The notes: generated by a model not told the origin, from the letters alone. Shown: positions 2,369-33,357, counted from the stretch's first letter. The stretch: 34,393 nt of DNA from a virus (IMGVR_UViG_3300033141_005366:1-34393), one strand, 5' to 3'. Numbers and translations: made by a program.

Positions 2369-3517
2369 TCATCCGAGCCGTTTGACCACTTCGCGGACCG
2401 CAGCCCGGTCGATTTCGGCATAAACCTCGCTGACTGCCATCGAGCGATGGCCGAGGAGAATCCTCGCCGCTTCCAGCCCTGCCTCTCTGCGTATCCGTGT
2501 GGCGAACGCGTGCCTCAATTGGTGCGGATGCCACCTTTCAATGCCCGCCTTCCGGCATCCCCTGGCGATCGCCTGCTCGTAGCTTTGCATCGAATAGCAG
2601 TCCGCCAGGTTCCGCGGCGTGGCTGATTCCCTTTTCCGAGATTGCCCCCGCCGAGAGATGGGCGTCTTCCGATTCCTGCGGCGCTCGGCGTTGAGCTCCG
2701 CCACCGCTTCGGCCGGCGAGAACAGATACTTCTGGACCTCAGCCCGAAGCCACGGCCGAAGCACCTCCTGGGCCCGCGGCCCCAGCTCGATGATACGCTC
2801 ATGCCCGAAACGTTCCGTCTTGTGCCGATAAGGCCGATACAACCATATCTCGCCGGTCACGTCGATATCGCAGCCCCTCATGATGCGGACTTCGCCCGGC
2901 CGCATGCCGGTCAGCCATTGCAATTGGACCATGGCCCACACCTGCGGCCTGACGTATGGTTCTATCGCTCGCATATCAGCCTCGGATACCGGACCGACCG
3001 GTTCGGATTCGCTCGCCCCTTCTTCCCCCCGCCGCAGACCGGGAACGCTTCGAAGCGCCTCGTACGTGGCCGGCGGAACGAGCTCGTTAGCTACGGCCCA
3101 CTTGAACATTCGCTTGATGCGCTCCACGTGTCGATTGATGGAGGTTCGCACCCAACCTCGTTCGATCATCTTTCGGCGGACGGCCTTCAGCGCGAGCGGA
3201 CCGAATTCCTCGGCGGGAATATCCTGGTAAAGCCGGCGGACCTCCCCCAGCGCCTTCTTGATCGTCCGCGCTTCATCCCGAGAATAGTATCCTTCCGCCC
3301 ATTCCCAGTATTGCGCGAGCAGCATCGCAATAGTGAATCTTTCGCCCGAGGCGAACCGCCGCCCGTTCGCAAGCCATTCAGCGATCACGCGATCATAGCG
3401 AATTCGCGACGCGGGTGTTCCGTATTTTCCGAGATAGATATCCTTGCCGTCTATCCGCACGACGGCCTGGCCGGAAGCTTTATGCAGGCAATAGGCAGGA
3501 AGGCGTTCTCGAGCCAT
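2369..3517 (-). CDS. int: tyrosine recombinase (phage integrase)
   Basis: A 382-residue recombinase. The N-terminal arm reads YCLHKASGQAVVRIDGK with GKYGTPASRIRYDRVIAEWL, a style I associate with planctomycete integrases. The SAM-like core-binding part follows (about 60-160). All catalytic positions are visible: R206 in TGMRPGEV, K233 in HKTE, H332 and R335 in HPHQLRHAFATR, H357 in LLGHRS, and nucleophile Y366 in EVYAEID. It would integrate and excise the phage at the tRNA-Asn core 90 bp upstream of its start. It converges with the repressor, only five bases separating the stops. A 17-bp perfect palindrome lies 12 bp before the ATG and may control it. Confidence 0.96.
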   Translation of the reverse strand: MARERLPAYCLHKASGQAVVRIDGKDIYLGKYGTPASRIRYDRVIAEWLANGRRFASGERFTIAMLLAQYWEWAEGYYSRDEARTIKKALGEVRRLYQDIPAEEFGPLALKAVRRKMIERGWVRTSINRHVERIKRMFKWAVANELVPPATYEALRSVPGLRRGEEGASESEPVGPVSEADMRAIEPYVRPQVWAMVQLQWLTGMRPGEVRIMRGCDIDVTGEIWLYRPYRHKTERFGHERIIELGPRAQEVLRPWLRAEVQKYLFSPAEAVAELNAERRRNRKTPISRRGQSRKRESATPRNLADCYSMQSYEQAIARGCRKAGIERWHPHQLRHAFATRIRREAGLEAARILLGHRSMAVSEVYAEIDRAAVREVVKRLG

Positions 3518-3528
3518 CAGGCCTCCTT

Positions 3529-3545
3529 CTCCGTAGACTACGGAG
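3529..3545. repeat. 17-bp perfect palindrome upstream of int
   Basis: CTCCGTAG-A-CTACGGAG: two 8-bp arms around one base, 12 bp before the integrase start. The inner 15 bp recur, with the central base changed, at 3793-3807 on the other side of the tRNA core. It is a likely binding site for a dimeric protein (regulator, excisionase or integrase arm). Confidence 0.75.
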
Positions 3546-3606
3546 GCGTATCGACACAGCTCGAAAATCGCCCGTTGAAGAAACCGTTATCGGCTTTGCG
3601 AAATCC

Positions 3607-3656
3607 TGGCTCCCCGGGCTGGATTCGAACCAGCAACCTAGTGGTTAACAGCCACT
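3607..3656 (-). other. attP core: 3' half of tRNA-Asn(GTT)
   Basis: Read on the minus strand this is a tRNA from the anticodon arm to its 3' end. There is a 5-bp anticodon stem AGTGG/CCACT with loop CTGTTAA (anticodon GTT), a 5-nt variable loop, a T-stem GCTGG/CCAGC with loop TTCGAAT, the acceptor 3' strand CCGGGGA, discriminator G and encoded CCA. The 5' half (D-arm, acceptor 5' strand) is absent, so it is not a working tRNA. A phage-borne 3' tRNA segment beside an integrase is the classic attP identity core, which restores the host gene on integration. The attB is therefore predicted to be a tRNA-Asn gene. The flanks (3518-3606, 3657-3800) are AT-richer and hold no gene. Confidence 0.9.
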
Positions 3657-3792
3657 TTTTCGCTCTTGGGCGATTTTTCGAGATGTGCACACAGTTCCGA
3701 GGTTTTTTTGAATCGGCGTTCAGGTCAGACCGGGCAAAATCCCGTAAATTCGTACAAATTTTGCTCAGTATTTGCAGCCCTGCCGCTGCTCC

Positions 3793-3807
3793 TCCGTAGT
3801 CTACGGA
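3793..3807. repeat. 15-bp palindrome, second copy flanking attP
   Basis: TCCGTAG-T-CTACGGA, the same 7-bp arms as the palindrome at 3529-3545. Centre-to-centre distance is 263 bp, with the tRNA-Asn core between. It overlaps the stop of the small membrane-protein gene at 3801. Confidence 0.75.
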
Positions 3808-3977
3808 ATCCACTGCGAGCGAGCATATGCCCATAACAGGCGCACGGCGAGAGACAATATCAACGTGTAGAGGGTCATTCCCAGGCAGATACCAACGCCG
3901 ATCGAGACGAGGAGCGTCCGCTCATTGAACATGATTTCGAGACGTTGGACCGGGTCTTTCACTTTGGTTCCGTTCAT
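3801..3977 (-). CDS. 58-aa single-pass membrane protein
   Basis: The start is ATG 3977, which overlaps the stop of the upstream HTH gene by four bases (ATGA) and has GAAAGGA eight bases before it. Residues about 22-50 (LLVSIGVGICLGMTLYTLI and following) form a strong hydrophobic helix, with a short charged N-terminus (KVKDPVQRLE) and an aromatic tail (LLWAYARSQWIP). No family is recognised. Its location next to attP would suit a lysogenic-conversion or superinfection-exclusion protein, or a small holin. That is conjecture. Confidence 0.65.
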   Translation of the reverse strand: MNGTKVKDPVQRLEIMFNERTLLVSIGVGICLGMTLYTLILSLAVRLLWAYARSQWIP

Positions 3978-4207
3978 CGCTGTTTTCCTTTCAGTGCCCG
4001 CCGGACGGTGGCGGGCTTCAGGTCGTAATACTCCGCCCACTTCCGGATGATGCGGATGGGCGGCTCCCAGTTTCGCTTGCCGGACGGACCCCGACCGATT
4101 TCATGCCTGTATACGGTAGTCGGGTGCAGGCCGATTTCCGCCGCGACCTCTTCGATGGTGAGGCCGCGCCGAAGTCGATTCCGGCGAAGTATGTTCCCCT
4201 TGGTCAT
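3974..4207 (-). CDS. small helix-turn-helix DNA-binding protein
   Basis: A 77-residue protein made almost entirely of an HTH: NRLRRGLTIEEVAAEIGLHP then TTVYRHEIGRGPSGKR, followed by a helical tail (IRIIRKWAEYYDLKPATVRR). It resembles XRE or Cro-type regulators and is basic throughout. ATGA overlaps on both sides link it to the MgsA-like gene upstream and the membrane protein downstream. It is the DNA-binding protein nearest attP on this side, a good candidate for the recombination directionality factor or a Cro-like regulator, and the palindromes at 3529 and 3793 are possible targets. Role inferred. Confidence 0.82.
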   Translation of the reverse strand: MTKGNILRRNRLRRGLTIEEVAAEIGLHPTTVYRHEIGRGPSGKRNWEPPIRIIRKWAEYYDLKPATVRRALKGKQR

Positions 4208-4779
4208 ATGTCTCCTTTCAACAATGGATGTTTTTCTTTTTCCTCCAGCCGCCAGAACCGGTATGCATCCTCCTCGTATCGATCCTCTTGTGCAGGTGCA
4301 GGGACAAGCCGGCTCGCTTCGGCCCGGAAATGCTCCAGCCCCCGCCCCATCTTCTTGCCCCGGCAGGTGTGCTTATCCAGTGCCTCGTCGGGGATGGGAA
4401 GCCGCTCGCTGCGATGTTTCAGTCGAACCGCCGCCTGGAAATGATCGCCCTCGCGCGACTTCGGCGACCTGCACAACGCCCGGATGGCGTTACCGATGGC
4501 GATCCGCCATTCGGGTTTCTTCAGCTTATACCACCGTCGGGCCTGTTCCATTGTCAGGGCCGTATAGGTGACCGTGTAAATGTCGGCCAGGCCGATATCT
4601 TCCTGGGAAATGACTTCGAGCCTGCTCGCGGCCCAGGAGAACAGGCCGGAGCCGGCGAGCTCTTCGAACCAGTACATCGCCGCGACCTCCTGGCCGCGGC
4701 GTACTGCTTTCTGCAAGGCAGACACGACTTCATAGGTATCGTACCCCTTTGTCGTATTGCGTCTTGGCCCATGGGGCAT
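4204..4779 (-). CDS. MgsA/RarA C-terminal-domain-like protein
   Basis: A 191-residue protein whose core (residues about 14-100) matches the C-terminal domain of the MgsA/RarA AAA+ family: YEVVSALQKAVRRGQEVAAM, YWFEELAGSG, RRLEV-type SRLEVISQEDIGLAD, then LCRSPKSREGDHF. In full-length RarA this helical part follows the ATPase and mediates tetramerisation at stalled forks. Here there is no Walker A or B motif, so it is a free-standing domain, a form seen in phages. GGAGATTG precedes the ATG, and the stop overlaps the HTH start. It could interfere with or borrow host RarA. That is inference. Confidence 0.8.
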   Translation of the reverse strand: MPHGPRRNTTKGYDTYEVVSALQKAVRRGQEVAAMYWFEELAGSGLFSWAASRLEVISQEDIGLADIYTVTYTALTMEQARRWYKLKKPEWRIAIGNAIRALCRSPKSREGDHFQAAVRLKHRSERLPIPDEALDKHTCRGKKMGRGLEHFRAEASRLVPAPAQEDRYEEDAYRFWRLEEKEKHPLLKGDI

Positions 4780-4780
4780 T

Positions 4781-5029
4781 TCAATCTCCTTTGCGCTCTT
4801 CGGCGGCCTTGTTCATTTCGGTTATGACATCCTGCGTGGACAGATTTTCGCCATAGCGCTGCATCAGTTCGCGGACGATTGATCGCCATGCATCCCCGCG
4901 ATCTTCCGGTTCGCAGCGACCGTATCGTGCCGCGTACACGGCACTTGCCGCAAAGGAAGCCCCTATCAATGCGCCCTGGTTTTCCTTGAACAATCTGCGA
5001 AAGTGGTTCTCGTCTCTTATTTGTCTCAT
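4781..5029 (-). CDS. 82-aa hypothetical protein downstream of element copy A
   Basis: A mostly helical, soluble 82-residue protein (RQIRDENHFRRLFKENQG, a small Ala-rich stretch, then VRELMQRYGENLSTQDV and EERKGD at the end). No family recognised. It sits between element copy A (5051-5095) and the MgsA-like gene, with one base between its stop and the next ATG. Only a weak AGGA directly abuts the start, so initiation may depend on upstream structure or coupling. Confidence 0.7.
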   Translation of the reverse strand: MRQIRDENHFRRLFKENQGALIGASFAASAVYAARYGRCEPEDRGDAWRSIVRELMQRYGENLSTQDVITEMNKAAEERKGD

Positions 5030-5050
5030 TTCCTATTTGTCCCATATGCA

Positions 5051-5095
5051 GCCCGCTGGAGCCCCGGTAGCGGGCAGTTAAGGCGCCGGGGCGCC
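5051..5095 (-). repeat. gene-boundary element, copy A
   Basis: A 45-bp element between the 5104 stop and the 5029 start. On the minus strand helix S2 pairs GCCCGCT (5075-5069) with AGCGGGC (5057-5051). Its loop contains CCGGGG (5067-5062), which is complementary to CCCCGG (5091-5086) in an upstream GGCG...CGCC hairpin loop. It differs from copy B at a single position, where A has a U-A pair and B has U-G. Confidence 0.85.
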
Positions 5096-5103
5096 ATGCG
5101 ACC

Positions 5104-5430
5104 TTACGCATCATTGTACCCATCTGTCATGGCTTCATAACAGAGCCCGCAGATATCGAGGCCGTCATCATCGGCTTCAGTCAGGAACTGCCCACATCGC
5201 CTGCAAGTGGACGGCCCTTCCGTCCACGCATAGATTTCACGAGTGGCACCGGTGGGAATCGCCTCGGCTGGCAATTCCCACAATTTTGTTTTCACTCCAT
5301 GGACATCACGCAGGTGCATGCGAATGCCCTGCGCATTCGTCCCCACCGCGTTGGTCTTGCTCTGTACGCCGTCGTAGCGGTCGCACAGAGCGCACCGATA
5401 CATTTTTTCCTGTTTCTTGACCCTATACAT
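5104..5430 (-). CDS. two-zinc-finger protein
   Basis: A 108-residue protein with two metal-binding clusters. Residues about 13-45 form a C2H2-like finger (CALC then, after about 25 residues, HLRDVHG). Residues about 76-97 form a four-Cys ribbon (CRRCGQFL ... CGLCYEA). The linker contains an aromatic patch (KLWELPAEAIP). This suggests a small nucleic-acid-binding or adaptor protein. GGGAGAG lies six bases before ATG 5430, and element copy B lies just upstream. No exact family recognised. Confidence 0.78.
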   Translation of the reverse strand: MYRVKKQEKMYRCALCDRYDGVQSKTNAVGTNAQGIRMHLRDVHGVKTKLWELPAEAIPTGATREIYAWTEGPSTCRRCGQFLTEADDDGLDICGLCYEAMTDGYNDA

Positions 5431-5448
5431 ATCATTCTCTCCCGTGTC

Positions 5449-5493
5449 GCCCGCCGGAGCCCCGGTAGCGGGCAGTTAAGGCGCCGGGGCGCC
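5449..5493 (-). repeat. gene-boundary element, copy B
   Basis: 44 of 45 bases match copy A. S2 is GCCCGCT (5473-5467) with GGCGGGC (5455-5449), one U-G wobble. The S1 loop pairing CCCCGG/CCGGGG is intact. It starts three bases after the 5497 stop and ends 18 bases before the 5430 start, just before its Shine-Dalgarno. Confidence 0.85.
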
Positions 5494-5496
5494 GCA

Positions 5497-5934
5497 TCAA
5501 TCATGGTTTTGCCGTTGATTGGCCGCGGCTCGCTGTTCCTGTAACCTGCGCAACTCGGCCCTCAATTGTGTGTTCTCCCGCTTCAACCTGGCGTTTGTTT
5601 CGCCTTGTTTCGACGCGATTTTTTTCCACCTGGCGACCTCTGCGCTCTCCCTTCTGGACTCTGTCCGTTCCAGATGCCTCATTGCGAACTCGAAGACCCT
5701 GCGCCGCTGAATCGCGCCGTATGCGGCCTGCCAGCGTCGATTCATCTCGCGGTTTGTTTGTCTCAACCTCGCAATCTCATGGCAGCAGAGGCGGTGCCGT
5801 TCCTCGCATTCCGGGCACAAGGTCATATGACATCTGGGACAGATACGCCTACTACCTGAATCCATGAGTCCTGCACCGCATAGCTCGCATGTAGGACCTG
5901 TCATCTGCACTGCATGCTCCTGTCTGTCTGACAT
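5497..5934 (-). CDS. zinc-ribbon plus coiled-coil protein
   Basis: A 145-residue protein. The N-terminal third has dense CxxC and CxxH pairs (CELCGAG, CPRCHMTLCPECEERHRLCC), consistent with a zinc ribbon or B-box-like double zinc site. Residues about 55-145 form a long charged coiled coil (EIARLRQTNREMNRRW, ARLKRENTQLRAELRRLQEQ) ending in Asn/Gln-rich sequence. It is probably an oligomeric adaptor. AGGAGACTGAGTA precedes the ATG. No defined function. Confidence 0.78.
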   Translation of the reverse strand: MSDRQEHAVQMTGPTCELCGAGLMDSGSRRICPRCHMTLCPECEERHRLCCHEIARLRQTNREMNRRWQAAYGAIQRRRVFEFAMRHLERTESRRESAEVARWKKIASKQGETNARLKRENTQLRAELRRLQEQRAAANQRQNHD

Positions 5935-5976
5935 TACTCAGTCTCCTGCCCTCTAACCAACAGTACCATCGTTTCC

Positions 5977-6294
5977 TCAGCGGAGGCCTGGTGATGGGCA
6001 ATCTGCGTCCCGGGCCGCTTCGCCGTCGCTTCCTGCCTCCGGCATCCATTGCGCAACGTAGGTGCTGCTCAGTGTTAGTGCTCCGCCAGACACGCGCGAA
6101 CCGAACTGCACGTGCCACGTATCCCCCCCTGGTATACGATTCCGGATCGGCACGGAATCATAATCAGGGTGAAGATCCCGCCGCGCCATGTCGAGCGCGG
6201 CGTCCATGTTCGCTGCTTCGTAGCGGCGTTCCTGGATTTCGCCGACCTTCCAGATGGTCAGCGTGCCGGGCATATCCTGATCTCGCTTATCCAT
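5977..6294 (-). CDS. hypothetical protein downstream of element copy C
   Basis: A 105-residue protein. The N-terminal half looks like a short beta-alpha unit (GTLTIWKVGEIQERRYEAAN, then MDAALDMARRDLHPDYDSVP). The central part is beta-rich (DTWHVQFGSRVSGGALTLSS). No family recognised. AGGAG lies six bases before ATG 6294. Its only visible upstream sequences are element copy C and an intrinsic terminator, with no promoter. Confidence 0.72.
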   Translation of the reverse strand: MDKRDQDMPGTLTIWKVGEIQERRYEAANMDAALDMARRDLHPDYDSVPIRNRIPGGDTWHVQFGSRVSGGALTLSSTYVAQWMPEAGSDGEAARDADCPSPGLR

Positions 6295-6311
6295 TTCTGT
6301 CTCCTATATCC

Positions 6312-6355
6312 GCCCGCCGGACCCCCGGACGGCGGGCAGCCTGGCGCCGGGGCGC
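6312..6355 (-). repeat. gene-boundary element, copy C
   Basis: A 44-bp copy. S2 is an 8-bp perfect helix, GCCCGCCG (6337-6330) with CGGCGGGC (6319-6312), where copy A has a T-A pair instead of C-G. S1 is CCCCGG/CCGGGG. It lies immediately after the terminator at 6356-6389 and 17 bases before the 6294 start. Confidence 0.82.
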
Positions 6356-6389
6356 AATAAAAAAGGCCAGCCGCGCATGCGGTTGACCT
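6356..6389 (-). terminator. intrinsic terminator after the 6395 gene
   Basis: On the minus strand AGGTCAACCGC (6389-6379) pairs with GCGGCTGGCCT (6374-6364) with one U-G and one mismatch, a 4-nt loop, and six T directly after. It begins six bases after the 6395 stop. Transcripts entering from upstream should end here, before element C and the 6294 gene. Confidence 0.75.
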
Positions 6390-6394
6390 GGTTA

Positions 6395-6736
6395 TCACGT
6401 TTCTGAGTTATCGAATGCCGCCGCTTCGGCGGCGGTCGGCATCCTGACGTCCTCGGGTTGCAGTTCGCAAGGGCATGGCCCACCCTCGCGAGCGGCTTGC
6501 TGAGCAGAGAGCCATTCGCGCCTCTCCCGGCCATCGGCTGTCTCGACCAGCCGGCAGTAATGCCGGCCGGAATTCGAAACATCGATGATTACCATCATTC
6601 CGGTGCCGGTAATCTCCTCTCTCCAATGGTTTCCAGTCCCAGACCAGCCGAACTGCCGGATGGAGATTCCATCCGTCATGGGACGCGCGAATGTGCGAGC
6701 GCCCATGCCTGTGCTTCTGCAGTCAATTATCATCAT
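6395..6736 (-). CDS. hypothetical protein downstream of element copy D
   Basis: A 113-residue protein beginning MMIIDCRSTGMGARTFARP. The centre reads IRQFGWSGTGNHWREEI and a beta-rich stretch (MMVIIDVSNSGRHYCRLVET), followed by a helix (REWLSAQQAAREGG) and a paired-Cys CPCEL motif. No family recognised. Two adjacent ATGs (6736, 6733) follow GAGG at 5 and 8 bases. It is followed directly by an intrinsic terminator. Confidence 0.72.
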   Translation of the reverse strand: MMIIDCRSTGMGARTFARPMTDGISIRQFGWSGTGNHWREEITGTGMMVIIDVSNSGRHYCRLVETADGRERREWLSAQQAAREGGPCPCELQPEDVRMPTAAEAAAFDNSET

Positions 6737-6752
6737 CTTCACCTCTTTTTAT

Positions 6753-6795
6753 CCGCCCTGTCCCCGGCGGCGGGCAACGAAGACGCCGGGACGCC
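6753..6795 (-). repeat. gene-boundary element, copy D (most diverged)
   Basis: A 43-bp copy. The S2 helix is shortened to five pairs (CCGCC 6773-6769 with GGCGG 6757-6753). S1 is UCCCGG with CCGGGG, a U-G in place of C-G. The upstream stem is GGCG/CGTC with a G-U. Substitutions mostly keep pairing possible. It lies 16 bases before the 6736 start. Confidence 0.75.
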
Positions 6796-6802
6796 GGTGA
6801 AT

Positions 6803-7012
6803 CTAGATGCTCGGCCGTGCGAGAGCCGCCCGGAGCTTGGCCGGTCCGGCCTCCAGCAACCGCGCGTATGCCTGCCGGTTGCTCGTGTGGTTCGCCGCCC
6901 AAGCTCCGCGATACGCCGCTTCGGCACGAGCAGGCCAGTTCCTGAGCAGCCACTCAACGTGGCCGCTGCCGAGCTCGGCTACCGCTGCCGCAAGGTCATT
7001 CGATGTTCTCAT
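6803..7012 (-). CDS. 69-aa hypothetical protein
   Basis: ATG 7012 is chosen because GGAG lies seven bases upstream and the preceding gene ends at 7035. The longer open frame to 7195 would overlap that gene out of frame. The protein is short, helical and Ala/Arg-rich (AVAELGSGHVEWLLRNWPAR, RQAYARLLEAGPAKLRAAL). No family recognised. Element copy D lies eight bases after its stop. Confidence 0.68.
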   Translation of the reverse strand: MRTSNDLAAAVAELGSGHVEWLLRNWPARAEAAYRGAWAANHTSNRQAYARLLEAGPAKLRAALARPSI

Positions 7013-7034
7013 TACAGTTCTCCACCCGAACGGG

Positions 7035-7403
7035 TCATTCTCCGTATCCACCTGCGTCCGCCCTCTCGATGCGTTGTGCAACGCGGCGGATATGTTCTCG
7101 CTCCGCCGCCAGGGCCGCCGCGCGGCCTTCCCAATCATATCCGAGCCCTCTGGGCCCGGTGATGGTTTGCCACAGCCCCGGTTTTGCGAATTCAAAGACC
7201 CTCAACGTTCCATTGATATGGAGCTCGCAGATCATTTGGTCCGCATTGATTTTCCAGACTCTCAGCCGGCCCGTATAAACCGAGACATCAATTTCCGGTT
7301 CAGCTTCAGGTACCGCCGCCGGGCTGCCTTTTTCGGCACAAGCCGAGGCCTGTGCCACCAGCCAATTCCTCGCATCTTTGTGCAAATCTGCATTCGTCAT
7401 CAT
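7035..7403 (-). CDS. hypothetical protein, first gene after promoter P1
   Basis: A 122-residue protein. The N-terminal helix is DARNWLVAQASACAEKG. A central beta-rich domain follows (IDVSVYTGRLRVWKINADQM, ICELHINGTLRVFEF), then a helical C-terminus (AALAAEREHIRRVAQRIERA). GGAG lies eight bases before ATG 7403, with a second ATG directly following. It is the first gene behind the strong promoter at 7444-7472. No family recognised. Confidence 0.75.
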   Translation of the reverse strand: MMTNADLHKDARNWLVAQASACAEKGSPAAVPEAEPEIDVSVYTGRLRVWKINADQMICELHINGTLRVFEFAKPGLWQTITGPRGLGYDWEGRAAALAAEREHIRRVAQRIERADAGGYGE

Positions 7404-7442
7404 TGTCAAGTCTCCTTTCTGTCCTCCCCACCTCGTCTATTA

Positions 7443-7595
7443 TATTATACCACATGCCGGGGCTTTTGTCAAGCTTTTTTTCGGTTTTTTTTCGGTTTTT
7501 TTGGAAGGGCGAAAGTGCCCCTGCATAAAACTTTGGGATGTAATCTTTTACGCCGGCGCCGCGCTCAAAAAATTTTTTTCGGGGGTCAGAAAAAA
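7443..7595 (-). repeat. 155-bp promoter repeat, copy 1
   Basis: Near-identical to 8470-8625. It contains, in minus-strand order, an A7T6-type tract, a short GC segment, three A-runs of 7-8 spaced by CCG (about 11-bp period), then the complete promoter P1. Scattered substitutions show it is an old duplication or under selection. Confidence 0.9.
7444..7472 (-). promoter_or_regulatory. promoter P1 (consensus, extended -10)
   Basis: TTGACA (7472-7467), a 17-bp spacer, TATAAT (7449-7444). The spacer ends in ATGTGG, giving a TGn extended -10. Upstream phased A-tracts would act as an UP element and bend the DNA. It drives the 7403 gene and those beyond. Confidence 0.9.
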
Positions 7596-7617
7596 CAATT
7601 TAGAGCTCCGATGTCTC

Positions 7618-7634
7618 AGCACCGGGGCGCCGGA
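7618..7634 (-). repeat. partial gene-boundary element (hairpin 1 only)
   Basis: CGGCGCCCCGGTGCTG on the minus strand resembles the first hairpin of the boundary element (GCG-CCCCGG-TGC with a G-U), 13 bases after the 7647 stop. The second helix is absent, and the P1 repeat follows. It may be a remnant left when the promoter repeat was inserted or duplicated. Confidence 0.4.
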
Positions 7635-7646
7635 AAAAGTGCGCCG

Positions 7647-7883
7647 TTACGGTGCGCCTTTTTCACGTCGTTCAACGCCTTGTATCGCTTGCCTTCGAGA
7701 TTCGGTTGGTATCGTCCGAATCACCCCGGCATTCCCCTGCACGAGCACGCCGTTCGCCAACCGGATAAGAGCTCCACGTCGACCCGGCCCGCCGTTGTAT
7801 TCCCCCAGACATTCGGCGCCCGCCGGCAATGGCGCCGAGCCCCAGTACAGATTCTTAGCTTTTGAGGGAGACATATCACCCAT
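7647..7883 (-). CDS. 78-aa hypothetical protein downstream of element copy E
   Basis: A Gly-rich, probably beta-rich small protein (NLYWGSAPLPAGAECLGEY, RRGALIRLANGVLVQGNAG, VIRTIPTESR). No family recognised. AGGAG lies eight bases before ATG 7883, immediately after element copy E. It is probably co-transcribed with the 8438 gene from P2. Confidence 0.68.
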   Translation of the reverse strand: MGDMSPSKAKNLYWGSAPLPAGAECLGEYNGGPGRRGALIRLANGVLVQGNAGVIRTIPTESRRQAIQGVERREKGAP

Positions 7884-7902
7884 TATTTTTTCTCCTGTTC
7901 TC

Positions 7903-7949
7903 GCCCGCCGCTGTCCCCGGCCGGCGGGCAGCTTGAGCGCCGGGGCGCC
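7903..7949 (-). repeat. gene-boundary element, copy E
   Basis: A 47-bp copy with an 8-bp perfect S2 (GCCCGCCG 7929-7922 with CGGCGGGC 7910-7903), S1 CCCCGG/CCGGGG, and upstream stem GGCG/CGCT closed by a G-U. It lies between the 7959 stop and the 7883 start, 19 bases before that ATG. Confidence 0.85.
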
Positions 7950-7958
7950 GGGAATACG

Positions 7959-8438
7959 TCAGTCAAGCCCTCGTGCAGCAAAGCCTCTCTCTATCCGCCT
8001 GCGCTTTTCCTCCTTTGCCTCCCGTCGTTCCTCGTCCTCTTGCGCGGCCTCCTGGGGATATTTACGTCGCCAGTTACGCAAGGCGATCCGGGCTTCCTCC
8101 ATGAGCTGCAAGCTCCCGACATAGTCGCGATCCTGTATTGCCCGCGCCCCATCCATCATTTTTTCGATGGCCAGGCGTTCTTTGGCTGCATCGGTCAGTT
8201 GGACTTGAGACTCACCGAGCAGCTGCCGCGCCGTCCGGGCCTCTTCGTCCGTGAGGCCAATATGGCCGAGGCGGTGGGTTACGCCACCCGAGCCCTTGCT
8301 ACGGATCTGGCACACATATCCGTAGTAGTCGCGTTGGACCACCTCGGCGAGTTCCCCGTCGATGAAGACGCGCACGTCCTCGCCCACCTTCTCGATTTGC
8401 ACTTCTCGTCCGTCATTCAGTTTCTTCAGGACTTGCAT
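7959..8438 (-). CDS. hypothetical protein, first gene after promoter P2
   Basis: A 159-residue protein. Residues 1-60 are beta-rich with a positively charged start (MQVLKKLNDGREVQIEK, VFIDGELAEVVQRDYYGYVC). A helical segment follows (LTDEEARTARQLLGESQ) and then a long charged, likely coiled-coil tail (EDEERREAKEEKRRRIERG). AAAGGAG lies before ATG 8438, and promoter P2 is 33 bases upstream, so high expression is expected. No family recognised. Confidence 0.8.
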   Translation of the reverse strand: MQVLKKLNDGREVQIEKVGEDVRVFIDGELAEVVQRDYYGYVCQIRSKGSGGVTHRLGHIGLTDEEARTARQLLGESQVQLTDAAKERLAIEKMMDGARAIQDRDYVGSLQLMEEARIALRNWRRKYPQEAAQEDEERREAKEEKRRRIERGFAARGLD

Positions 8439-8469
8439 TTGTATCTCCTTTCAGCCCTCATCCATCTAC

Positions 8470-8625
8470 TGTATTATACCACATGCCGGGGCTTTTGTCA
8501 AGCTTTTTTTCGGTTTTTTTTCGGTTTTTTTTGGAAGGGCGAAAGTGCCCCTGCATAAAACTTTGGGATGCAATCTTTTACGCCGACGCCGCGCTGAAAA
8601 AATTTTTTTCGGCGGTCAGAAAAAA
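8470..8625 (-). repeat. 155-bp promoter repeat, copy 2
   Basis: Second copy of the repeat at 7443-7595, containing P2 and the phased A-tracts. Its far end encodes the last codons and stop of the 36-aa gene at 8616. Confidence 0.9.
8471..8499 (-). promoter_or_regulatory. promoter P2 (consensus, extended -10)
   Basis: TTGACA (8499-8494), a 17-bp spacer, TATAAT (8476-8471), with the same extended -10 and upstream A-tracts (A8 CCG A8 CCG A7) as P1. It drives the 8438 gene. Confidence 0.9.
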
Positions 8626-8726
8626 AGTTTGATCAGCTCGGAAATCCCGTACAGCGCTGCCAAGAGCGCTGCTACCACGAACCCGAAGAGCCCCGTCTTG
8701 ATGACGCTGTAACAATAACGGTCCAT
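8616..8726 (-). CDS. 36-aa membrane peptide
   Basis: ATG 8726 is preceded by AAAGGGG at a good distance. The peptide is a short polar head (MDRYCYSVIKTG) followed by one hydrophobic helix (LFGFVVAALLAALYGI) and a charged/aromatic tail. It is too short for a family assignment. Its place after the tail genes would suit a lysis or virion-egress peptide. That is conjecture. The 179 bases upstream (8727-8905) show no other gene or convincing terminator. Confidence 0.55.
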   Translation of the reverse strand: MDRYCYSVIKTGLFGFVVAALLAALYGISELIKLFF

Positions 8727-8905
8727 ATCTGCCCCTTTCAATTGGAATTGGTTCGAACGCGACCGAATCACCCGCAGGAATCGAGCGTAGCGCCGGGACG
8801 ATTGAAAATCAAGTGAAATCCTGGTGGAATTCGGGCGGGAAAAAGTGCGGCCAGGGCGGCGATGCCGGCGGAATCGATCCTTGGCTCTCTCCGGTGAGAC
8901 CCGGA

Positions 8906-10099
8906 TCAATCGGGCACGAGCCGCAGACTCACATATTCGAGGCCGGGCGTGATGTACGGATTGTATTTGAGATTTGCGTCGAAGGGGAAGGGGAGGAAAC
9001 CGCTGGCATCATGCTCGATAACGGCACCGATGTAGAGGTACTTATAGTAGGCGCTTGAAACCGGCAGGTACTTCCAGAAACCGCCGTCATTCGCCCGGTA
9101 CCAGCGTAGCGTGAGCAGGGGCACGCGATGAAATGCCTGGGCCTGCCGCATCATTGTGCGGGTTATGACAGAGGGCATTTCGGCGAATGCCATGTAAACG
9201 AATCGAATTCCGGTCCATGATTCGATATGCGTATCGTTATTGGAGGAGTCTCGAATGAATGCGTTGGCGTCCTGGTACAGGCTGATGCGCAGCCACATCG
9301 AATGATTGTTGTAGGATGTGAGGTCGAAGAGGACGCCTCTGCGGATGACGCTTGCGTCGCTGTCGGGGCCCCAAGCCTTATACATCCAGAGAGTCGACTC
9401 AATGTCGTACGCTCCGTGGCGGTAATCTTGGATGGTGCATTCGGCCGGTTCGACGATTCGGCGTCCGAGTTCCTGCCAGGAGGTTTGATCATAGCCGTCT
9501 ACGCTCTCGTCGATATCGTCATATACCCAGTAATCGGCGGAGAGGAGGACGGGCTGCTGGAAATGAAGGCGGACGTGCGCTCCCTCCGCCTCGCCCGTAT
9601 CGTCGGTAACGTAAACATACGGCGTATACTCGTCACCCACGCGCGTGGCCGTCAATTGTATCGAGGCTTCGCCGTTGGTCCAATCGCCCGAGGCGATGGT
9701 AGTGGGGGAGAGATTGCAGTTCGGGGAGGAAATGGTACATTGATTATTGTATGTGGTATTTGGACCATAATCGGGCCGGCGGCCATATCGGTCGCCTTCG
9801 GCGTCCGGCTCCGATGCCCAGGCCTTGACGATGAAGGTGAACGCTTCGCCGGATATGATTTCGCCGTTTTCCCCGTTGGGTATCACCTGGATAGTGAGAT
9901 ACGTTTGAATTTCGGGCGGGTTGATGATGATCGTCCCGTCGTTTTCGTTCACGCCGGCGGTCTCTTCCTCTCCGCCGTAGGTTACATGGATTTCACCGGC
10001 CTCGGGCTGCTGTACCGTCGCGATGCGTTCGGTTTCTGCTTCGAGGAACACGAGCTTGCCATCGGAATCTCGGATGTAACCGGTCTCGGTCATTGTCAT
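8906..10099 (-). CDS. putative tail fibre / virion-surface protein
   Basis: A 397-residue protein at the distal end of the tail operon. Residues about 60-175 look Ig-like or beta-sandwich (IQTYLTIQVIPNGENGEI, AFTFIVKAWASEPDAEG, ASIQLTATRVGDEYTPYVYV). A larger aromatic domain follows (WVYDDIDESVDGYDQTSW, WLRISLYQDANAFI), ending in GLEYVSLRLVPD. It is rich in Tyr, Trp, Asn and Asp and has no signal peptide, fitting a structural surface or receptor-binding protein. Its ATG overlaps the upstream stop (ATGA). No family is recognised, so the role is inferred from position and composition. Confidence 0.7.
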   Translation of the reverse strand: MTMTETGYIRDSDGKLVFLEAETERIATVQQPEAGEIHVTYGGEEETAGVNENDGTIIINPPEIQTYLTIQVIPNGENGEIISGEAFTFIVKAWASEPDAEGDRYGRRPDYGPNTTYNNQCTISSPNCNLSPTTIASGDWTNGEASIQLTATRVGDEYTPYVYVTDDTGEAEGAHVRLHFQQPVLLSADYWVYDDIDESVDGYDQTSWQELGRRIVEPAECTIQDYRHGAYDIESTLWMYKAWGPDSDASVIRRGVLFDLTSYNNHSMWLRISLYQDANAFIRDSSNNDTHIESWTGIRFVYMAFAEMPSVITRTMMRQAQAFHRVPLLTLRWYRANDGGFWKYLPVSSAYYKYLYIGAVIEHDASGFLPFPFDANLKYNPYITPGLEYVSLRLVPD

Positions 10100-10722
10100 T
10101 CGCTATGGACAACGCCCACTCGCCAATCCTGCGCGGGCGTGCCGTAATATGTACCACCGATCTGCGTCACGAACAGATAATCGCCTTCGAATAGCAGGGG
10201 GAACAGGTCGTACCACGCTTTTCCGTGAACGTTATAGGCAGTTACGTCCTCGTTGTCATCGACGAGATGCACGCTGAGGCCCTGGTTGGCTCCGGCGTCT
10301 TCATTGGCGTAGGCGCGCTTGAGCGTACCGGGAGTTCTGCCGGCGGCCGCGAAGCCGACGCCATACCATGCATGTCCGATCTGGCATGTCACGAACACAT
10401 CGCCGTTCTCGAGACACGGCGAAAGCGTATTCCAGACGCTGGCATCGAGTGTGTGAACCGTAATCTCTTCGGTTTCCGTGTCTGCCGCGTTAAGCAGCTT
10501 CGCCTGTAGCATCGAACTTTCGCCGGCGTTTTCCTGTGCCCTGGCCCTCCTGAGCGCGACGGCCTGCAAGGCGAGCCTCCGCCTCAGCTCGCGGAGGTTG
10601 ATGGAGAGGCGCCTGCCGTTGACCTGGATGATGCCGTCGCCGACGAGCGGCTCGTTGATGGCATCGACGAGGTCATTCAGGCGGCTGCTGCCGGGGCCCC
10701 GGCGGAAACGTCTGAGCTTCAT
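10096..10722 (-). CDS. putative tail-tip / virion protein
   Basis: A 208-residue protein with a basic start (MKLRRFRRGPGSSRLND), then LVDAINEPLVGDGIIQVNGR, a helical link, and two similar beta-rich halves. Each half has a DxW...L...L..GD.....IG..YYG-type pattern (VWNTLSPCLENGDVFV and WYDLFPLLFEGDYLFVTQIG), an internal duplication. The start overlaps the upstream stop in TGATG. The Shine-Dalgarno GGAGG can pair with CCTCC three bases later, so translation is probably coupled to the upstream gene. Function inferred from position. Confidence 0.68.
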   Translation of the reverse strand: MKLRRFRRGPGSSRLNDLVDAINEPLVGDGIIQVNGRRLSINLRELRRRLALQAVALRRARAQENAGESSMLQAKLLNAADTETEEITVHTLDASVWNTLSPCLENGDVFVTCQIGHAWYGVGFAAAGRTPGTLKRAYANEDAGANQGLSVHLVDDNEDVTAYNVHGKAWYDLFPLLFEGDYLFVTQIGGTYYGTPAQDWRVGVVHSE

Positions 10723-19143: not shown

Positions 19144-20274
19144 TCAGCGGGATTGGAGGAAATACAGGTCATCGCGGATAGGGCCGCGCTTCTTCCACCA
19201 CTTATCGTATGGTTCGATGGACATGGCCTTCGGGGTCCGGCGGAGCCACTCCTTCCTGGTGTTGCGATCCCGGAACAGGTACAGCGCGTAGCCGCCGGAC
19301 CCTGAACCGCAGTATTTTCGTGAGGCGCCCGGGACGTCAGGAAGGTCCTCCATTCCCTCGGCGATTTGTGCTGCATAGCTCATTTCCACGGCCTCGGCCA
19401 GCAGGCCGATGGAGCGGGTCTCGACCGCGCGCTGCGCGACCTGGCCAGCCTCGATGATCGCGTCGTATGGGCGAGGTTTGTCCACCAGTGCCGCCGTATC
19501 GTGCGGCTTGCCGGACCAGTACAGCGCCATCCTGCCGAGGAGGAAATCGGGCGAGACGCGGCAGATGAGCCTGGGCGAGTTGCCGCTTTCCCAGACGCAG
19601 AGGCCGCTTTCCTCAATGATTGCGGGGTCCTGCCAGCCGACGCCATTGGCAAGTTCGGCGCGAAAGGCATCGCGCCCCTGGAGGAGTGCGTGAGCGGCGG
19701 AGCCGCCGAGACCGCTGCCGAGTCGATATGGCCAGAACGTACGGTGCACGAGCGGCACGATTGCGCAGTTGACGATACGGCCGCCGGGCTGGGCCAGGCG
19801 GGGGACATCGAGCCATCCACCGGCGAAATCGACGCGGAGGGGCACCTTGTCCGTTCCCGTGATCCGCGTGCGGATATCGGTAGTGGAGACGGTTCCGGGC
19901 ACGCGCCGCTTGGCAATGACGCGATATTCGGCTCCGATTTCGTTGCAGAGGATGCGCTTTTCGCGGCTGTACTGATCATCCTCGGTAACGGCGAGGATGT
20001 CGGGCTTGAGCTCCCGGGCGAGGGGTGCGAAATCGAGTCCGAGGGGCCTGGCGACCGGGCTGAGCAGGGCGATGTCCACCGGCCTCAGTGCGGCGACGAG
20101 TGCGAGCCTGTTTTCGTCGGGAAGCGCGGCCTTGCGGCCCTTGTGCGCGCGGATGGATTCGCTATTGGCGACGCAGACGATGAGCTCATCACCGAGGGCC
20201 CTAGCGTCCTCCAGGAAGGCGACGTGGCCGGCGTGGAGGAGGTCGAAGCATCCGCTGACCATCACGCGCGTCAT
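19144..20274 (-). CDS. bifunctional nucleotidyltransferase - GHMP sugar kinase
   Basis: A 376-residue fusion. Residues 1-140 form a cytidylyltransferase-fold domain: VMVSGCFDLLHAGH contains HxGH at 14-17, LPDENRLALVAALRPVD follows, and VSTTDIRTRI (129-138) is the ISTT-type signature, closest to RfaE/HldE-type enzymes. Residues 146-376 form a compact GHMP kinase: LRVDFAGGWLDVP, ATP loop GSGLGGSAA (186-194) and CGSGSGG (322-328), most like heptose-7-phosphate kinases (HddA). The pair could phosphorylate and activate a sugar to a nucleotide sugar. It lies inside the head operon. ATG 20274 is preferred; ATG 20283 overlaps the upstream stop but lies against GGAGG. The substrate is not determinable here. 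Confidence 0.88.
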   Translation of the reverse strand: MTRVMVSGCFDLLHAGHVAFLEDARALGDELIVCVANSESIRAHKGRKAALPDENRLALVAALRPVDIALLSPVARPLGLDFAPLARELKPDILAVTEDDQYSREKRILCNEIGAEYRVIAKRRVPGTVSTTDIRTRITGTDKVPLRVDFAGGWLDVPRLAQPGGRIVNCAIVPLVHRTFWPYRLGSGLGGSAAHALLQGRDAFRAELANGVGWQDPAIIEESGLCVWESGNSPRLICRVSPDFLLGRMALYWSGKPHDTAALVDKPRPYDAIIEAGQVAQRAVETRSIGLLAEAVEMSYAAQIAEGMEDLPDVPGASRKYCGSGSGGYALYLFRDRNTRKEWLRRTPKAMSIEPYDKWWKKRGPIRDDLYFLQSR

Positions 20275-20279
20275 CGCGG

Positions 20280-20540
20280 TCATTCCTCCGGTGCGAATTT
20301 TCGGGGTCGGCCGCGACGTTTGCGTTGTGCCGGGGCCACTTGCGTTCGCGGAGGCGGCGGGGCCTCGGCGGTCATGACCTCGGTCTTCGGCCGCATCGCC
20401 TGGTTGTATTCGGCCTCGTCGATCTCCTCGATGAAGCCCTGTCCGACGGCGGTCCGGGCGAGTGCCGGGTCGAGCTTCTTGAGCGGCGTGCCGGGCGGCA
20501 TGCCGCGCCATCTTCGTTTCACTCGGTAATACGTATTCAT
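20280..20540 (-). CDS. 86-aa protein with AT-hook-like tail
   Basis: ATG 20540 overlaps the upstream stop (ATGA). Residues 1-45 (YYRVKRRWRGMPPGTPLKKL, QGFIEEIDEAEYN) look like a small folded domain. The C-terminus is Pro/Arg-rich and ends with RKRRGRPRKFAPEE, an AT-hook-like RGRPRK. Small proteins of this kind occur next to head genes of HK97-type phages. The basic tail could contact packaged DNA. No firm family. Confidence 0.65.
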   Translation of the reverse strand: MNTYYRVKRRWRGMPPGTPLKKLDPALARTAVGQGFIEEIDEAEYNQAMRPKTEVMTAEAPPPPRTQVAPAQRKRRGRPRKFAPEE

Positions 20541-21766
20541 CGCCATGCTTCCGACGGTTTGCCGTTATTGCTGTATTCGTATGGGTGTTGCAAAATCACC
20601 GTGAAATCTTTCGCCGGCCAGCGAATATGCTCTTCGGCGTGGCCGATGACCACGCGGTTGGCCTGGTAGAGGCTGAAACCGTTTTCCCGCCACTTGTTCC
20701 AGAAATAGATGTCCGCATCCACGCGACCCTTCCCCCAGCGGCCTTCATCGTTGGGCTGGCTCCAGAACCAGGGGAGTGGCAACTTCTTCAGGGTTTCGAC
20801 GCGGATCACGGTGAGGCCGAAATGGGCGGTGCGGATTTTCGTGAGGTCGTGAGCGAACCGGTGCAGGGGGATCATCTTCATCAGTTCGCCGTTATCGTCG
20901 GTGATGGTCATGAGCGGGTGGTTTTCGCTGCGATGCGCCTGGATGGGAGCGATGGCGTCGGCAGCAGGATACTCATACATCAGTTCGACGAGCTCGCGGA
21001 CGTCATCAGGCGTGAAAATCGAGTCGAAATCGATCGTGAGGATCAGGTCCGGTTTCCTGGTCTCGATGACTTCCTCGATGACGCGGCTGATGCACTGCTC
21101 CCAGAAAGCGCCCTGGTGCTGGATGAGCTCGATGCGGTGGCGGTAAGAAGCTTCGTGTGCGCATCCGGCGGTGTGCAGGGGGCCGTACTTGGGAATGGAC
21201 ATCACGGCTACGGTTTTCATCGGGAGCGGGCGGTCTGGGCCGGCGTAGCGGGCGGGCGGGCCGGTCCAGGTTTGGGCGTCGCGCTGGACTTCGACGGCAG
21301 GCTTTCGGCCCTGGAGGTTCAGCGAGACCGGCAGCGCCGCGCAGTCCTGTATTTCGGACTGCCAGGGTTCGATATCGACGAGTCCGCATTGCTCCATCAG
21401 GGCGCGGAGTTTCTTTTCGTTCCAGATGCTGCCGTGGAAATCATTTTCGTCGACGTGGCCGCCCATCAAGTGGGCTTCGACCTGGGGATCGCTGCCGCTC
21501 TTGTAACTGTCGACGATCTTGTCGAAATCCGGCACGGCGATCCGGATGCGGCCGCCGGGCGCGAGCACGCGAACCCAGTCGGCGAGCGCTGCGGGCGCCT
21601 GCCGATGGGAATAGTGCTCGAGGATGTGCGAGGCGTAGATTTCCTCGGCCGAATCATCGGGATACGGCAGCGGATAGGCAGGCTGCCCCTGCCTCTTATC
21701 CACGTTGAGGTAGCCGGGCAGTTTCGTGTCGCCTGCGCCCAGGTTGAGCTTAAGGCTTTCTTTCAT
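20537..21766 (-). CDS. SAM methyltransferase - glycosyltransferase fusion
   Basis: A 409-residue protein with two domains. Residues 5-150 form a class I methyltransferase: LNLGAGDTKLPGYLNVDKR (motif I), then YASHILEHYSHRQAP and LAPGGRIRIAVPDFDKI. From residue 183 (MKTVAVMSIPKYGPLHTAG) a GT-A-like glycosyltransferase follows, with PDLILTIDFDSIFTPDDVRE holding DFDS (246-249) as a DxD-type metal site and GRVDADIYFWNKWRENGFSL later. It sits between a decoration protein and the nucleotidyltransferase-kinase gene, consistent with glycosylation of a virion protein. The target is inferred. A GCGGGC/GCCCGC hairpin lies in the 67-bp leader. Confidence 0.85.
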   Translation of the reverse strand: MKESLKLNLGAGDTKLPGYLNVDKRQGQPAYPLPYPDDSAEEIYASHILEHYSHRQAPAALADWVRVLAPGGRIRIAVPDFDKIVDSYKSGSDPQVEAHLMGGHVDENDFHGSIWNEKKLRALMEQCGLVDIEPWQSEIQDCAALPVSLNLQGRKPAVEVQRDAQTWTGPPARYAGPDRPLPMKTVAVMSIPKYGPLHTAGCAHEASYRHRIELIQHQGAFWEQCISRVIEEVIETRKPDLILTIDFDSIFTPDDVRELVELMYEYPAADAIAPIQAHRSENHPLMTITDDNGELMKMIPLHRFAHDLTKIRTAHFGLTVIRVETLKKLPLPWFWSQPNDEGRWGKGRVDADIYFWNKWRENGFSLYQANRVVIGHAEEHIRWPAKDFTVILQHPYEYSNNGKPSEAWR

Positions 21767-23918: not shown

Positions 23919-23947
23919 AATATATCACATTTTCGGTGCTTTGTCAA
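23919..23947 (-). promoter_or_regulatory. promoter P3 ahead of the capsid gene
   Basis: TTGACA (23947-23942), a 17-bp spacer ending ATGTGA, TATATT (23924-23919). It overlaps the last codons of the protease gene and lies about 185 bp before the capsid start. Confidence 0.8.
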
Positions 23948-29746: not shown

Positions 29747-29775
29747 ATTATACCACATTTCCCGTAGTTTGTCAA
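29747..29775 (-). promoter_or_regulatory. promoter P4 ahead of HNH/terminase
   Basis: TTGACA (29775-29770), a 17-bp spacer ending ATGTGG, TATAAT (29752-29747): perfect hexamers with extended -10. It overlaps the stop of the glycosyltransferase gene and starts the packaging operon. Confidence 0.88.
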
Positions 29776-31598: not shown

Positions 31599-32288
31599 TC
31601 ACTTCCGCAATTTCTTTATCACCGCACTCGCCTGGGCGATTGTCAAATCCTTCAATGCCGACACCCCCATATCGCGGCAAATGTCATCCACAACGACCCC
31701 GCTCTCCGCCGCCATATTCCTGATCGCCTTCAACTGATTCTCCGTCGCCGATCGCGTCCGGCCGCCACCTTGGTTCCGCCCCTGCGCCCTCTCCTGCTGC
31801 CCCGCCTCATCAATCAGCATAAACAAATGCTGCAGCATCAGCCGCCGGCTCATTCGCAACGCCGTCGCCAGCCCGTGCCCATTCGCATCCGAACCTTCGC
31901 CCGGCATTTCAAGCGTCACTACCGCTCCGATCTCCGGGCTCCCAGCCACGATCCGCCATTGCACCATCACCCGCACGACCCGCTGTCGCCGCAGGTTATT
32001 CACACCATAACCCGCATCTTCCGTCCCGCCGCCCCTCTCGGGCAGTTCCACCCAGACATCTTCAATCGACTGCACAGTCGGGACTATCACAATCCCCTGC
32101 TCAATCAACAACGGCCGGACAGCATTATCCACCGCCGCCGCGCTTTGATATTCAAATTGTGGACCCGCAGTCGGCGAGCATGTCCGCACCGCCGGGCACC
32201 CCGCCATCACCTCCGCCAACTTCTGCAGCAATCCATGTTTTCCCGCGACTTGATCCATCGTTTTCGTTTCGTCCTGCCCCTTATTCAT
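31599..32288 (-). CDS. erf: ERF-family single-strand annealing protein
   Basis: A 229-residue protein. ATG 32288 follows AAAGGAG. The ERF domain covers about residues 15-165: GKHGLLQKLAEVMAGCPAVR, QFEYQSAAAVDNAVRPLLIE, QGIVIVPTVQSIEDVWVELP, RVMVQWRIVAGSPEIGAVVT, and HGLATALRMSRRLMLQHLFM. The C-terminus (NQLKAIRNMAAESGVVVDDI, TIAQASAVIKKLRK) is a small helical DNA-binding-type domain. ERF proteins anneal single strands in phage recombination and genome circularisation. An exonuclease partner is not seen nearby. Confidence 0.9.
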   Translation of the reverse strand: MNKGQDETKTMDQVAGKHGLLQKLAEVMAGCPAVRTCSPTAGPQFEYQSAAAVDNAVRPLLIEQGIVIVPTVQSIEDVWVELPERGGGTEDAGYGVNNLRRQRVVRVMVQWRIVAGSPEIGAVVTLEMPGEGSDANGHGLATALRMSRRLMLQHLFMLIDEAGQQERAQGRNQGGGRTRSATENQLKAIRNMAAESGVVVDDICRDMGVSALKDLTIAQASAVIKKLRK

Positions 32289-32895
32289 TTTTGTTTTCTC
32301 CTTTCTTCCGGCAACACACATCCATTGGACAATCATCACACATCACGCCATGCCCGGTCGCCTGGCAATATGGCGGCAGTTGAAGCCGCTCCGCCAGCCG
32401 GAGCCGGTCGAGTCCGCGACCGAAATGCCGCCTCGCCGCCTCGTCCACCTTCGCCAGCATCTCGGCATAGCGCCGTTGCACCTCCGGCCGCCGTGCCCTC
32501 TCCCGTGCCCGCGCTTCCGCTTCAGCACGCCGCTTCTCCGCATCCCGCCGCGCAGCCTCTTCGAACCGCCTCCTCGTCTCCACTATGCACGCAGGCCGTT
32601 CGAACCGCGTGCACGTCTTGCAGCACTTCAACGCCGGATCATACTCCCCGAACCTCACGCAGCGGCCGACCGCCGCCGCCCTCGCCTTCTCCGCCTTCTC
32701 CTCCCCCTCACCCTCATCACCAGCCACGTCCCCATCCACCCGCGCCGCGATGCACCGCCTGTATACATCCGGCCGCTCATTACGGCACTTCTCCCACTCG
32801 TCCGCGTCAGGACAATGCGCCTGCCGGAAACATCCCGGCAACCGCTCCGACTCCTCCCCCGGTTCCCATACCGCACTTTCAGCCATCCTGCTCAT
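32281..32895 (-). CDS. cysteine-rich hypothetical protein
   Basis: A 204-residue protein from ATG 32895 (overlaps the upstream stop as ATGA, AGGAG upstream). It has three Cys clusters: GCFRQAHCPDADEWEKC near the N-terminus, CVRFGEYDPALKCCKTCTRF in the middle, and YCQATGHGVMCDDCPMDVCC at the end. Between the last two lies a long charged helix (RFEEAARRDAEKRRAEAEAR). It probably binds several metals (zinc or Fe-S). It sits just before ERF in the recombination operon. No family recognised. Confidence 0.75.
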   Translation of the reverse strand: MSRMAESAVWEPGEESERLPGCFRQAHCPDADEWEKCRNERPDVYRRCIAARVDGDVAGDEGEGEEKAEKARAAAVGRCVRFGEYDPALKCCKTCTRFERPACIVETRRRFEEAARRDAEKRRAEAEARARERARRPEVQRRYAEMLAKVDEAARRHFGRGLDRLRLAERLQLPPYCQATGHGVMCDDCPMDVCCRKKGENKNE

Positions 32896-33222: not shown

Positions 33223-33357
33223 TGTACTCTGTACTCTGTACTCTCCCCCCACTATCCCCTCCATACGCACCGCATACACCACGCATATCCCATGTTTATC
33301 CCCCGCGTACACCAGGCGTATCCCCCCCATATCCACCGCATACATCCGGCATACCCT
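33223..33357. repeat. putative replication origin: 7-bp and 11-bp repeat arrays
   Basis: TGTACTC occurs three times in tandem (33223-33243), next to AT-rich TTTATATA (33212-33219). From about 33259 to 33357 an imperfect 11-bp unit (of type CCGCATACACC / ACGCATATCCC) repeats about nine times. Three larger 33-bp units start at 33270, 33303 and 33336. The array overlaps the end of the winged-helix-like gene. Iterons beside an initiator-like gene and an AT-rich stretch are the makings of a phage origin. The rest of 33120-33222 holds no gene. Confidence 0.6.

Follow-up and report, generated by a model that had tools for sequence, protein, structure and literature searches.

Genome context of the repeat elements

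The window analysed here comprises a complete IMG/VR virus record (34,393 bases). Its recognisable genes (terminase, portal, protease, head and tape measure) all lie on the minus strand, and after these late genes follow a block of small genes without assigned function (8.4-3.8 kb), the 3' fragment of a tRNA-Asn gene and an integrase gene. The phage with this record is temperate. In temperate phages the order late genes, accessory genes, attP and integrase marks the usual site of lysogenic-conversion genes. The five repeat elements described below (A-E) lie within this block, a probable accessory (lysogenic-conversion) region adjoining the probable attP. The following genes outside the elements are referred to in the text.

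2369..3517, minus strand: integrase of the tyrosine-recombinase type, with distant XerC-annotated matches
3617..3661, minus strand: 3' part of a tRNA-Asn gene and probable core of attP, next to the integrase (Rfam tRNA 23.4 bits, under the cut-off of 29)
3974-4207: small HTH protein
31599..32339, minus strand: Erf-like ssDNA annealing protein (phrog_155, 8e-13; PF04404 sub-threshold)

Inverted repeats containing TCCGTAGACTACGGAG enclose the tRNA-Asn 3' fragment, the probable attP (window 3530-3807). A stand-alone protein with the MgsA/RarA C-terminal domain (MgsA_C) and without the ATPase domain is encoded at 4204-4779 on the minus strand; relatives with 44-52% identity were found on 11 viral contigs, one of which (L162) carries a separate clamp-loader-like AAA gene nearby. 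Two large proteins encoded on the minus strand between the head gene and the head-tail adaptor gene (19144-20511 and 20537-21766) match PHROGs annotated as adenylyltransferase and methyltransferase, and their position is unusual. At 33242-33356 there is a diverged repeat array with an 11/33-nt period (TATCCCC..CGCATACACC), perhaps a coding repeat or an iteron-like array.

Five elements precede small genes

A repeat search recovered five elements of 45-47 nt on the minus strand as one repeat family.

Element A, 5051..5095, minus strand: hairpin 1 at 5095-5082 and helix 2 at 5075-5051; gap to the ATG of gene 4781-5029, 21 nt
Element B, 5449..5493, minus strand: 44/45 identical to A; gap to the ATG of gene 5104-5430, 18 nt
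Element C, 6312..6356, minus strand: directly 3' of an intrinsic terminator; gap to the ATG of gene 5977-6294, 17 nt
Element D, 6751..6795, minus strand: one C-A mismatch in helix 2; gap to the probable ATG (6736) of gene 6395-6742, 14 nt
Element E, 7903..7949, minus strand: gap to the ATG of gene 7647-7883, 19 nt

Each element is preceded by a stop codon and followed by the Shine-Dalgarno (SD) site of a small gene, in the orientation of the genes. The distance to the ATG is tight at 14-21 nt (21, 18, 17, 14 and 19 nt for A-E), whereas the distance from the preceding stop codon is variable at 3-38 nt (8, 3, 38, 7 and 9 nt). Element C keeps its start-codon adjacency where the terminator widens the intergenic gap, which suggests, from this one case only, that the element belongs to the downstream gene.

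When nhmmer profiles were built with one copy left out, every omitted copy was the sole significant extra match, with E values from 8e-5 to 9e-3 (C 9e-3, D 5.5e-4, E 1.8e-4; with A and B omitted jointly, A 2.7e-4 and B 7.9e-5). A scan of the whole phage with the core pattern returned exactly A-E, all on one strand, and the reversed-pattern control returned none. B differs from A at one base, and C, D and E are 64-69% identical to A. The flanks beyond the elements are unrelated, A and B being without similarity outside the element, and the genes between the copies are mutually unrelated. The G+C content of the elements is 78-89%. An earlier, sequence-only reading had described five same-facing copies, each between a stop codon and the next small gene, with unrelated neighbouring genes. 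This description is borne out by the repeat family, the pattern scan, the leave-one-out profiles and the gene comparison; its gaps of 16-21 nt need the correction to 14-21 nt, since the coordinate taken for D was 6753 instead of 6751.

Proposed fold of the elements

Read in the mRNA sense, the layout is GGCG(CCCCGG)CGCC, about six bases and then GCCCGCY-loop-RGCGGGC, with CCGGGG held in the second loop. Helix 2 comprises 7-8 bp with an 11-13-nt loop, and hairpin 1 is separate. Invariant columns made up 26/34 of the paired positions against 1/13 of the unpaired ones (Fisher p=2.5e-5), and the arrangement of hairpin 1, helix 2 and loop-loop complementarity arose in 0-8 of 4000 column shuffles. 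That conservation tracks the pairing scheme, together with its rarity in shuffles, is the strongest argument for the fold. The predicted energy of hairpin 1 plus helix 2 was -16 to -18 kcal/mol in four of the five copies, and that of the loop-loop duplex about -10 to -13 kcal/mol. The non-Watson-Crick pairs on the transcribed strand were five G-U against one C-A, as expected under RNA selection, although these small numbers are not significant alone. Single-copy folding energies did not differ from those of dinucleotide shuffles, because the element is 78-89% G+C.

The proposal that each copy can form both helices goes too far. Helix 2 of D contains a C-A mismatch as well as a G-U, and the minimum-energy fold of D by itself is a different one; in C the outermost hairpin 1 pair is broken. 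A, B, C and E have perfect loop complementarity (CCCCGG/CCGGGG), and D has one U-G; over the five copies, five of the six loop-loop pairs are invariant and one changes from C-G to U-G. Changes that keep pairing were confirmed for the pair named beforehand (U-A, U-G, C-G), but covariation of the whole structure among the five copies was no better than in shuffles (206/500).

A kissing loop or pseudoknot between the two loops, as the sequence-only reading had it, gained no support from covariation. In addition, a 4+6+7 bp end-to-end stack would measure an estimated ~48 A and is barely bridged by the 6-nt linker, so that the helices may have to bend or melt in part before the complete kiss can form within one molecule. 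The putative intramolecular contact would be sterically tight. Since the loops are nearly identical in all copies, pairing from copy to copy on one mRNA would be equally possible. We treat the kissing loop, and every function proposed below for A-E, as hypotheses.

Promoters, terminators and operon order

The scan of 3400-10200 for sigma-70 promoters gave P1, P2 and, beyond these, just two weak sites (9/12); none of the four falls within A-E. By the criterion of a GC-rich hairpin plus U run for intrinsic terminators, no U run was found 3' of any element.

Promoter P1, 8473..8501, minus strand: 29-nt identity to P2; precedes gene 7959-8438 and the E gene
Promoter P2, 7444..7472, minus strand: TTGACA-17-TATAAT with extended -10; precedes gene 7035-7409 and the genes of D, C, B and A
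Terminator-like hairpin, 7634..7664, minus strand: at the end of gene 7647-7883; scored on the plus strand and folds on both
Intrinsic terminator, 6358..6388, minus strand: -14.8 kcal/mol plus U run; between gene 6395-6742 and C

In the direction of transcription P1 is followed by gene 7959-8438, E, gene 7647-7883 and the terminator-like hairpin, and P2 by gene 7035-7409, gene 6803-7012, D, gene 6395-6742 and the terminator. Thereafter come C, gene 5977-6294, gene 5497-5934, B, gene 5104-5430, A, gene 4781-5029 and the MgsA_C gene (4204-4779). No promoter was detected after the terminator at 6358-6388. With a terminator placed before C, transcription would arrive at C, B and A through read-through, from a promoter of a kind that the scan does not detect, or not at all.

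A 154-nt block is duplicated with 97% identity ahead of two accessory genes (7443-7595 and 8472-8625, minus strand). It has A-rich tracts before the promoter, ends with the perfect extended -10 sigma-70 promoter and looks like a mobile cassette. The promoter pattern had matches in viral contigs; a search with a 22-mer of the upstream promoter block gave no match. Upstream of the terminase genes and the major head gene, at 29747-29775 and 23919-23947 on the minus strand, there are two further promoters of this type, one reading TTGACAAA...ATGTGGTATAAT and the other differing from it by 2 mismatches.

Searches for relatives

The core pattern gave 75 matches in viral contigs, each of them single, and none was a full element. 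Helix 2 alone gave 69 matches there, none of which also had hairpin 1 and an RBS. Among genome contigs (one genome for each of 84,980 species) there was one match in Planomonospora, without the hairpin 1 sequence or the start-codon context. Neither the phage and plasmid records nor a pattern scan of 40 terminase-relative records gave a homologue of the element, and a covariance model (R1) run over 80 terminase relatives and 11 MgsA_C relatives found no credible one. Its best match (L119, 28 bits) lies inside a portal-like ORF without the loop complement and was rejected as a chance match; the repeats on L162 and L164 are different from the element. None of the 4227 Rfam models matched at gathering score, nor did any match the element at E<=5, in agreement with the earlier statement that no riboswitch could be recognised. 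For the neighbouring genes 8906-10099 and 5104-5430 no relatives were found.

A homologous family in other phages, for which the sequence-only reading had proposed a covariance-model search, was not found. Neither homologues nor covariation, whose absence that reading had named among the things that would refute it, have appeared so far, though close relatives are missing from the collections: the nearest terminase relatives are only 57% identical, and the absence of the element accordingly says little on function.

Interpretation

The reading we favour, tentatively and at somewhat below even confidence, is that A-E are RNA leaders acting in cis, each with two hairpins and each travelling with its gene. 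The element would be transcribed within the polycistronic mRNA of the accessory (lysogenic-conversion) operon, and the transcript would fold into two GC-rich hairpins with complementary loops directly upstream of an open SD site. Its likely job would be to demarcate the downstream cistron, setting its translation, and possibly also local mRNA stability or processing, apart from the preceding gene. The conserved loops could be read by a protein, and the element and its gene would move together. Transcription across the copies, folding in the cell, the effect on expression, the bound protein and the movement with the gene are all steps that we infer. The gene orientation of all copies, their restriction to these sites within the phage and the tight start-side gap point to such a leader, as do the invariance of paired columns, the rarity in shuffles, the energies of hairpin 1 plus helix 2, the G-U bias and the open SD. 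The predicted folds of A, B and E leave most SD positions unpaired, so the element is not a simple off-switch, and SD sequestration was dropped. SD accessibility was not significantly greater than with shuffled elements, and a test of insulation by shuffling was not significant. Against an RNA leader stand the missing covariation, folding energies no better than shuffles, one broken pair each in D and C, the want of homologues for a comparative structure test, and the fact that the conserved blocks would suit a DNA-binding protein equally.

That the elements are cassette boundaries, short shared homologies at gene borders through which small genes are swapped or duplicated by the phage annealing recombinase, with the hairpins secondary, is rather unlikely in our estimate. 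The genes between copies are unrelated, B and A form 45-nt direct repeats (44/45 identical) flanking one gene without outside similarity, and the phage encodes the Erf-like annealing protein (31599-32339), of a family for which efficient recombination of diverged sequences was shown (PMC3945230); Corndog gene 14, between 17-bp direct repeats, is a precedent (PMC4351075). The other copies, however, are short and just 64-69% alike, diverged for recombination, and neutral homology would not selectively conserve the pairable columns. The boundary is a serious competitor of the RNA leader, and the two can hold together. Among the three functions put forward by the sequence-only reading, translational control and a recombination boundary are both viable, and for put-like antitermination a single circumstantial point speaks, the terminator between gene 6395-6742 and C. 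We consider it unlikely, slightly more so than the boundary by itself, that the two hairpins are joined by loop-loop pairing into a phage-specific portable gene-start unit, which would both isolate expression and provide homology for gene gain and loss. A little less probable again is that the elements act at the DNA level, as an operator bound by a protein of the phage or its host (a transcription factor, a silencer or a nucleoid protein), by analogy with what was proposed for the ESAS repeats. The near-palindromic conserved blocks, the preference of the ESAS authors for DNA sites (PMC3203893) and the small HTH protein encoded at 3974-4207 would fit an operator, but the elements lie inside operons, distant from P1/P2, and show strict orientation, start proximity and a 5:1 excess of G-U over A-C substitutions, which is not significant alone.

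Put-like processive antitermination, in which a nascent two-hairpin RNA alters RNA polymerase to read through terminators, appears very improbable. Two adjacent hairpins are also found in HK022 put (PMC9378689), a good terminator with no promoter detected after it separates the D gene from C, and E precedes the terminator-like hairpin (7634-7664); yet put sits downstream of early promoters, while the five 45-nt copies stand at successive gene starts and C, B and A all follow the terminator. Hardly more can be said for a REP/MITE-like mobile hairpin or a protector of mRNA 3' ends incidentally placed between genes, to which we give the lowest probability. Four copies are compact hairpins 3-9 nt past stop codons, and A and B resemble recent copying, but 5/5 copies share one orientation, C is tied to the start side and not the stop side, and the element was found neither elsewhere in the phage nor in any collection searched. 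Integron attC sites were also considered and dropped, GTTRRRY-like letters being present in A and B only.

Start-associated repeats recur in unrelated phages, and A-E add a case. Five copies with conserved pairable loops, in a compact operon behind consensus promoters, make a small clean system in which the RNA, DNA-binding and recombination explanations are separable by reporters. If the portable leader is true, it would show temperate phages adding small genes to an operon with each still independently translated.

Comparison with known systems

A-E are neither terminators, promoters nor members of an Rfam family. They resemble most closely in description the ESAS/SAS repeats of cluster K mycobacteriophages, which are likewise multi-copy, oriented, intergenic, confined to one phage group and placed just upstream of unrelated non-structural gene starts. 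The function of those repeats is not known to date; their authors found little support for RNA pairing and judged DNA sites more likely (PMC3203893). An ESAS consists of a single imperfect inverted repeat of 17 bp with a 4-13-bp spacer, whereas A-E have helix 2 and a separate hairpin 1, complementary loops and a different sequence. ESAS adjoins the conserved 13-bp SAS GGGATAGGAGCCC that holds the RBS, whereas the RBS regions of A-E differ from one another, with neither SAS nor any conserved RBS block. At the sequence level A-E do not belong to ESAS.

In placement A-E are also like the 18-bp inverted repeats of Microbacterium cluster EG and the start motifs of clusters EC/EF (PMC7302621). The Microbacterium repeats occur in 8-10 copies at one genome end, in short intergenic gaps and typically 14-22 bp before start codons (PMC7302621), but each is a single palindrome, GATCAACCNNGGTTGATC, with no second hairpin. 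With the HK022 putL/putR RNA, compared by layout and not by sequence, A-E would share a compact form of two hairpins (PMC9378689); put is about 70 nt with two copies per genome in early operons, against five copies of 45-47 nt here, and suppresses downstream terminators via the zinc-binding domain of the RNAP beta' subunit (PMC9378689). PeSL (promoter-stem-loop) cassettes of T4-like phages are described as repeated intergenic regulatory stem-loops linked to small-gene shuffling (PMC4503421), as A-E may be. PeSLs contain an early promoter, which A-E do not, and the duplicated P1/P2 promoter blocks come closer to the PeSL idea. We conclude that A-E are a real, multi-copy element of the start-associated kind known from a few actinobacteriophages (PMC3203893, PMC7302621), with a new sequence and a two-hairpin layout that were found nowhere else in the collections searched.
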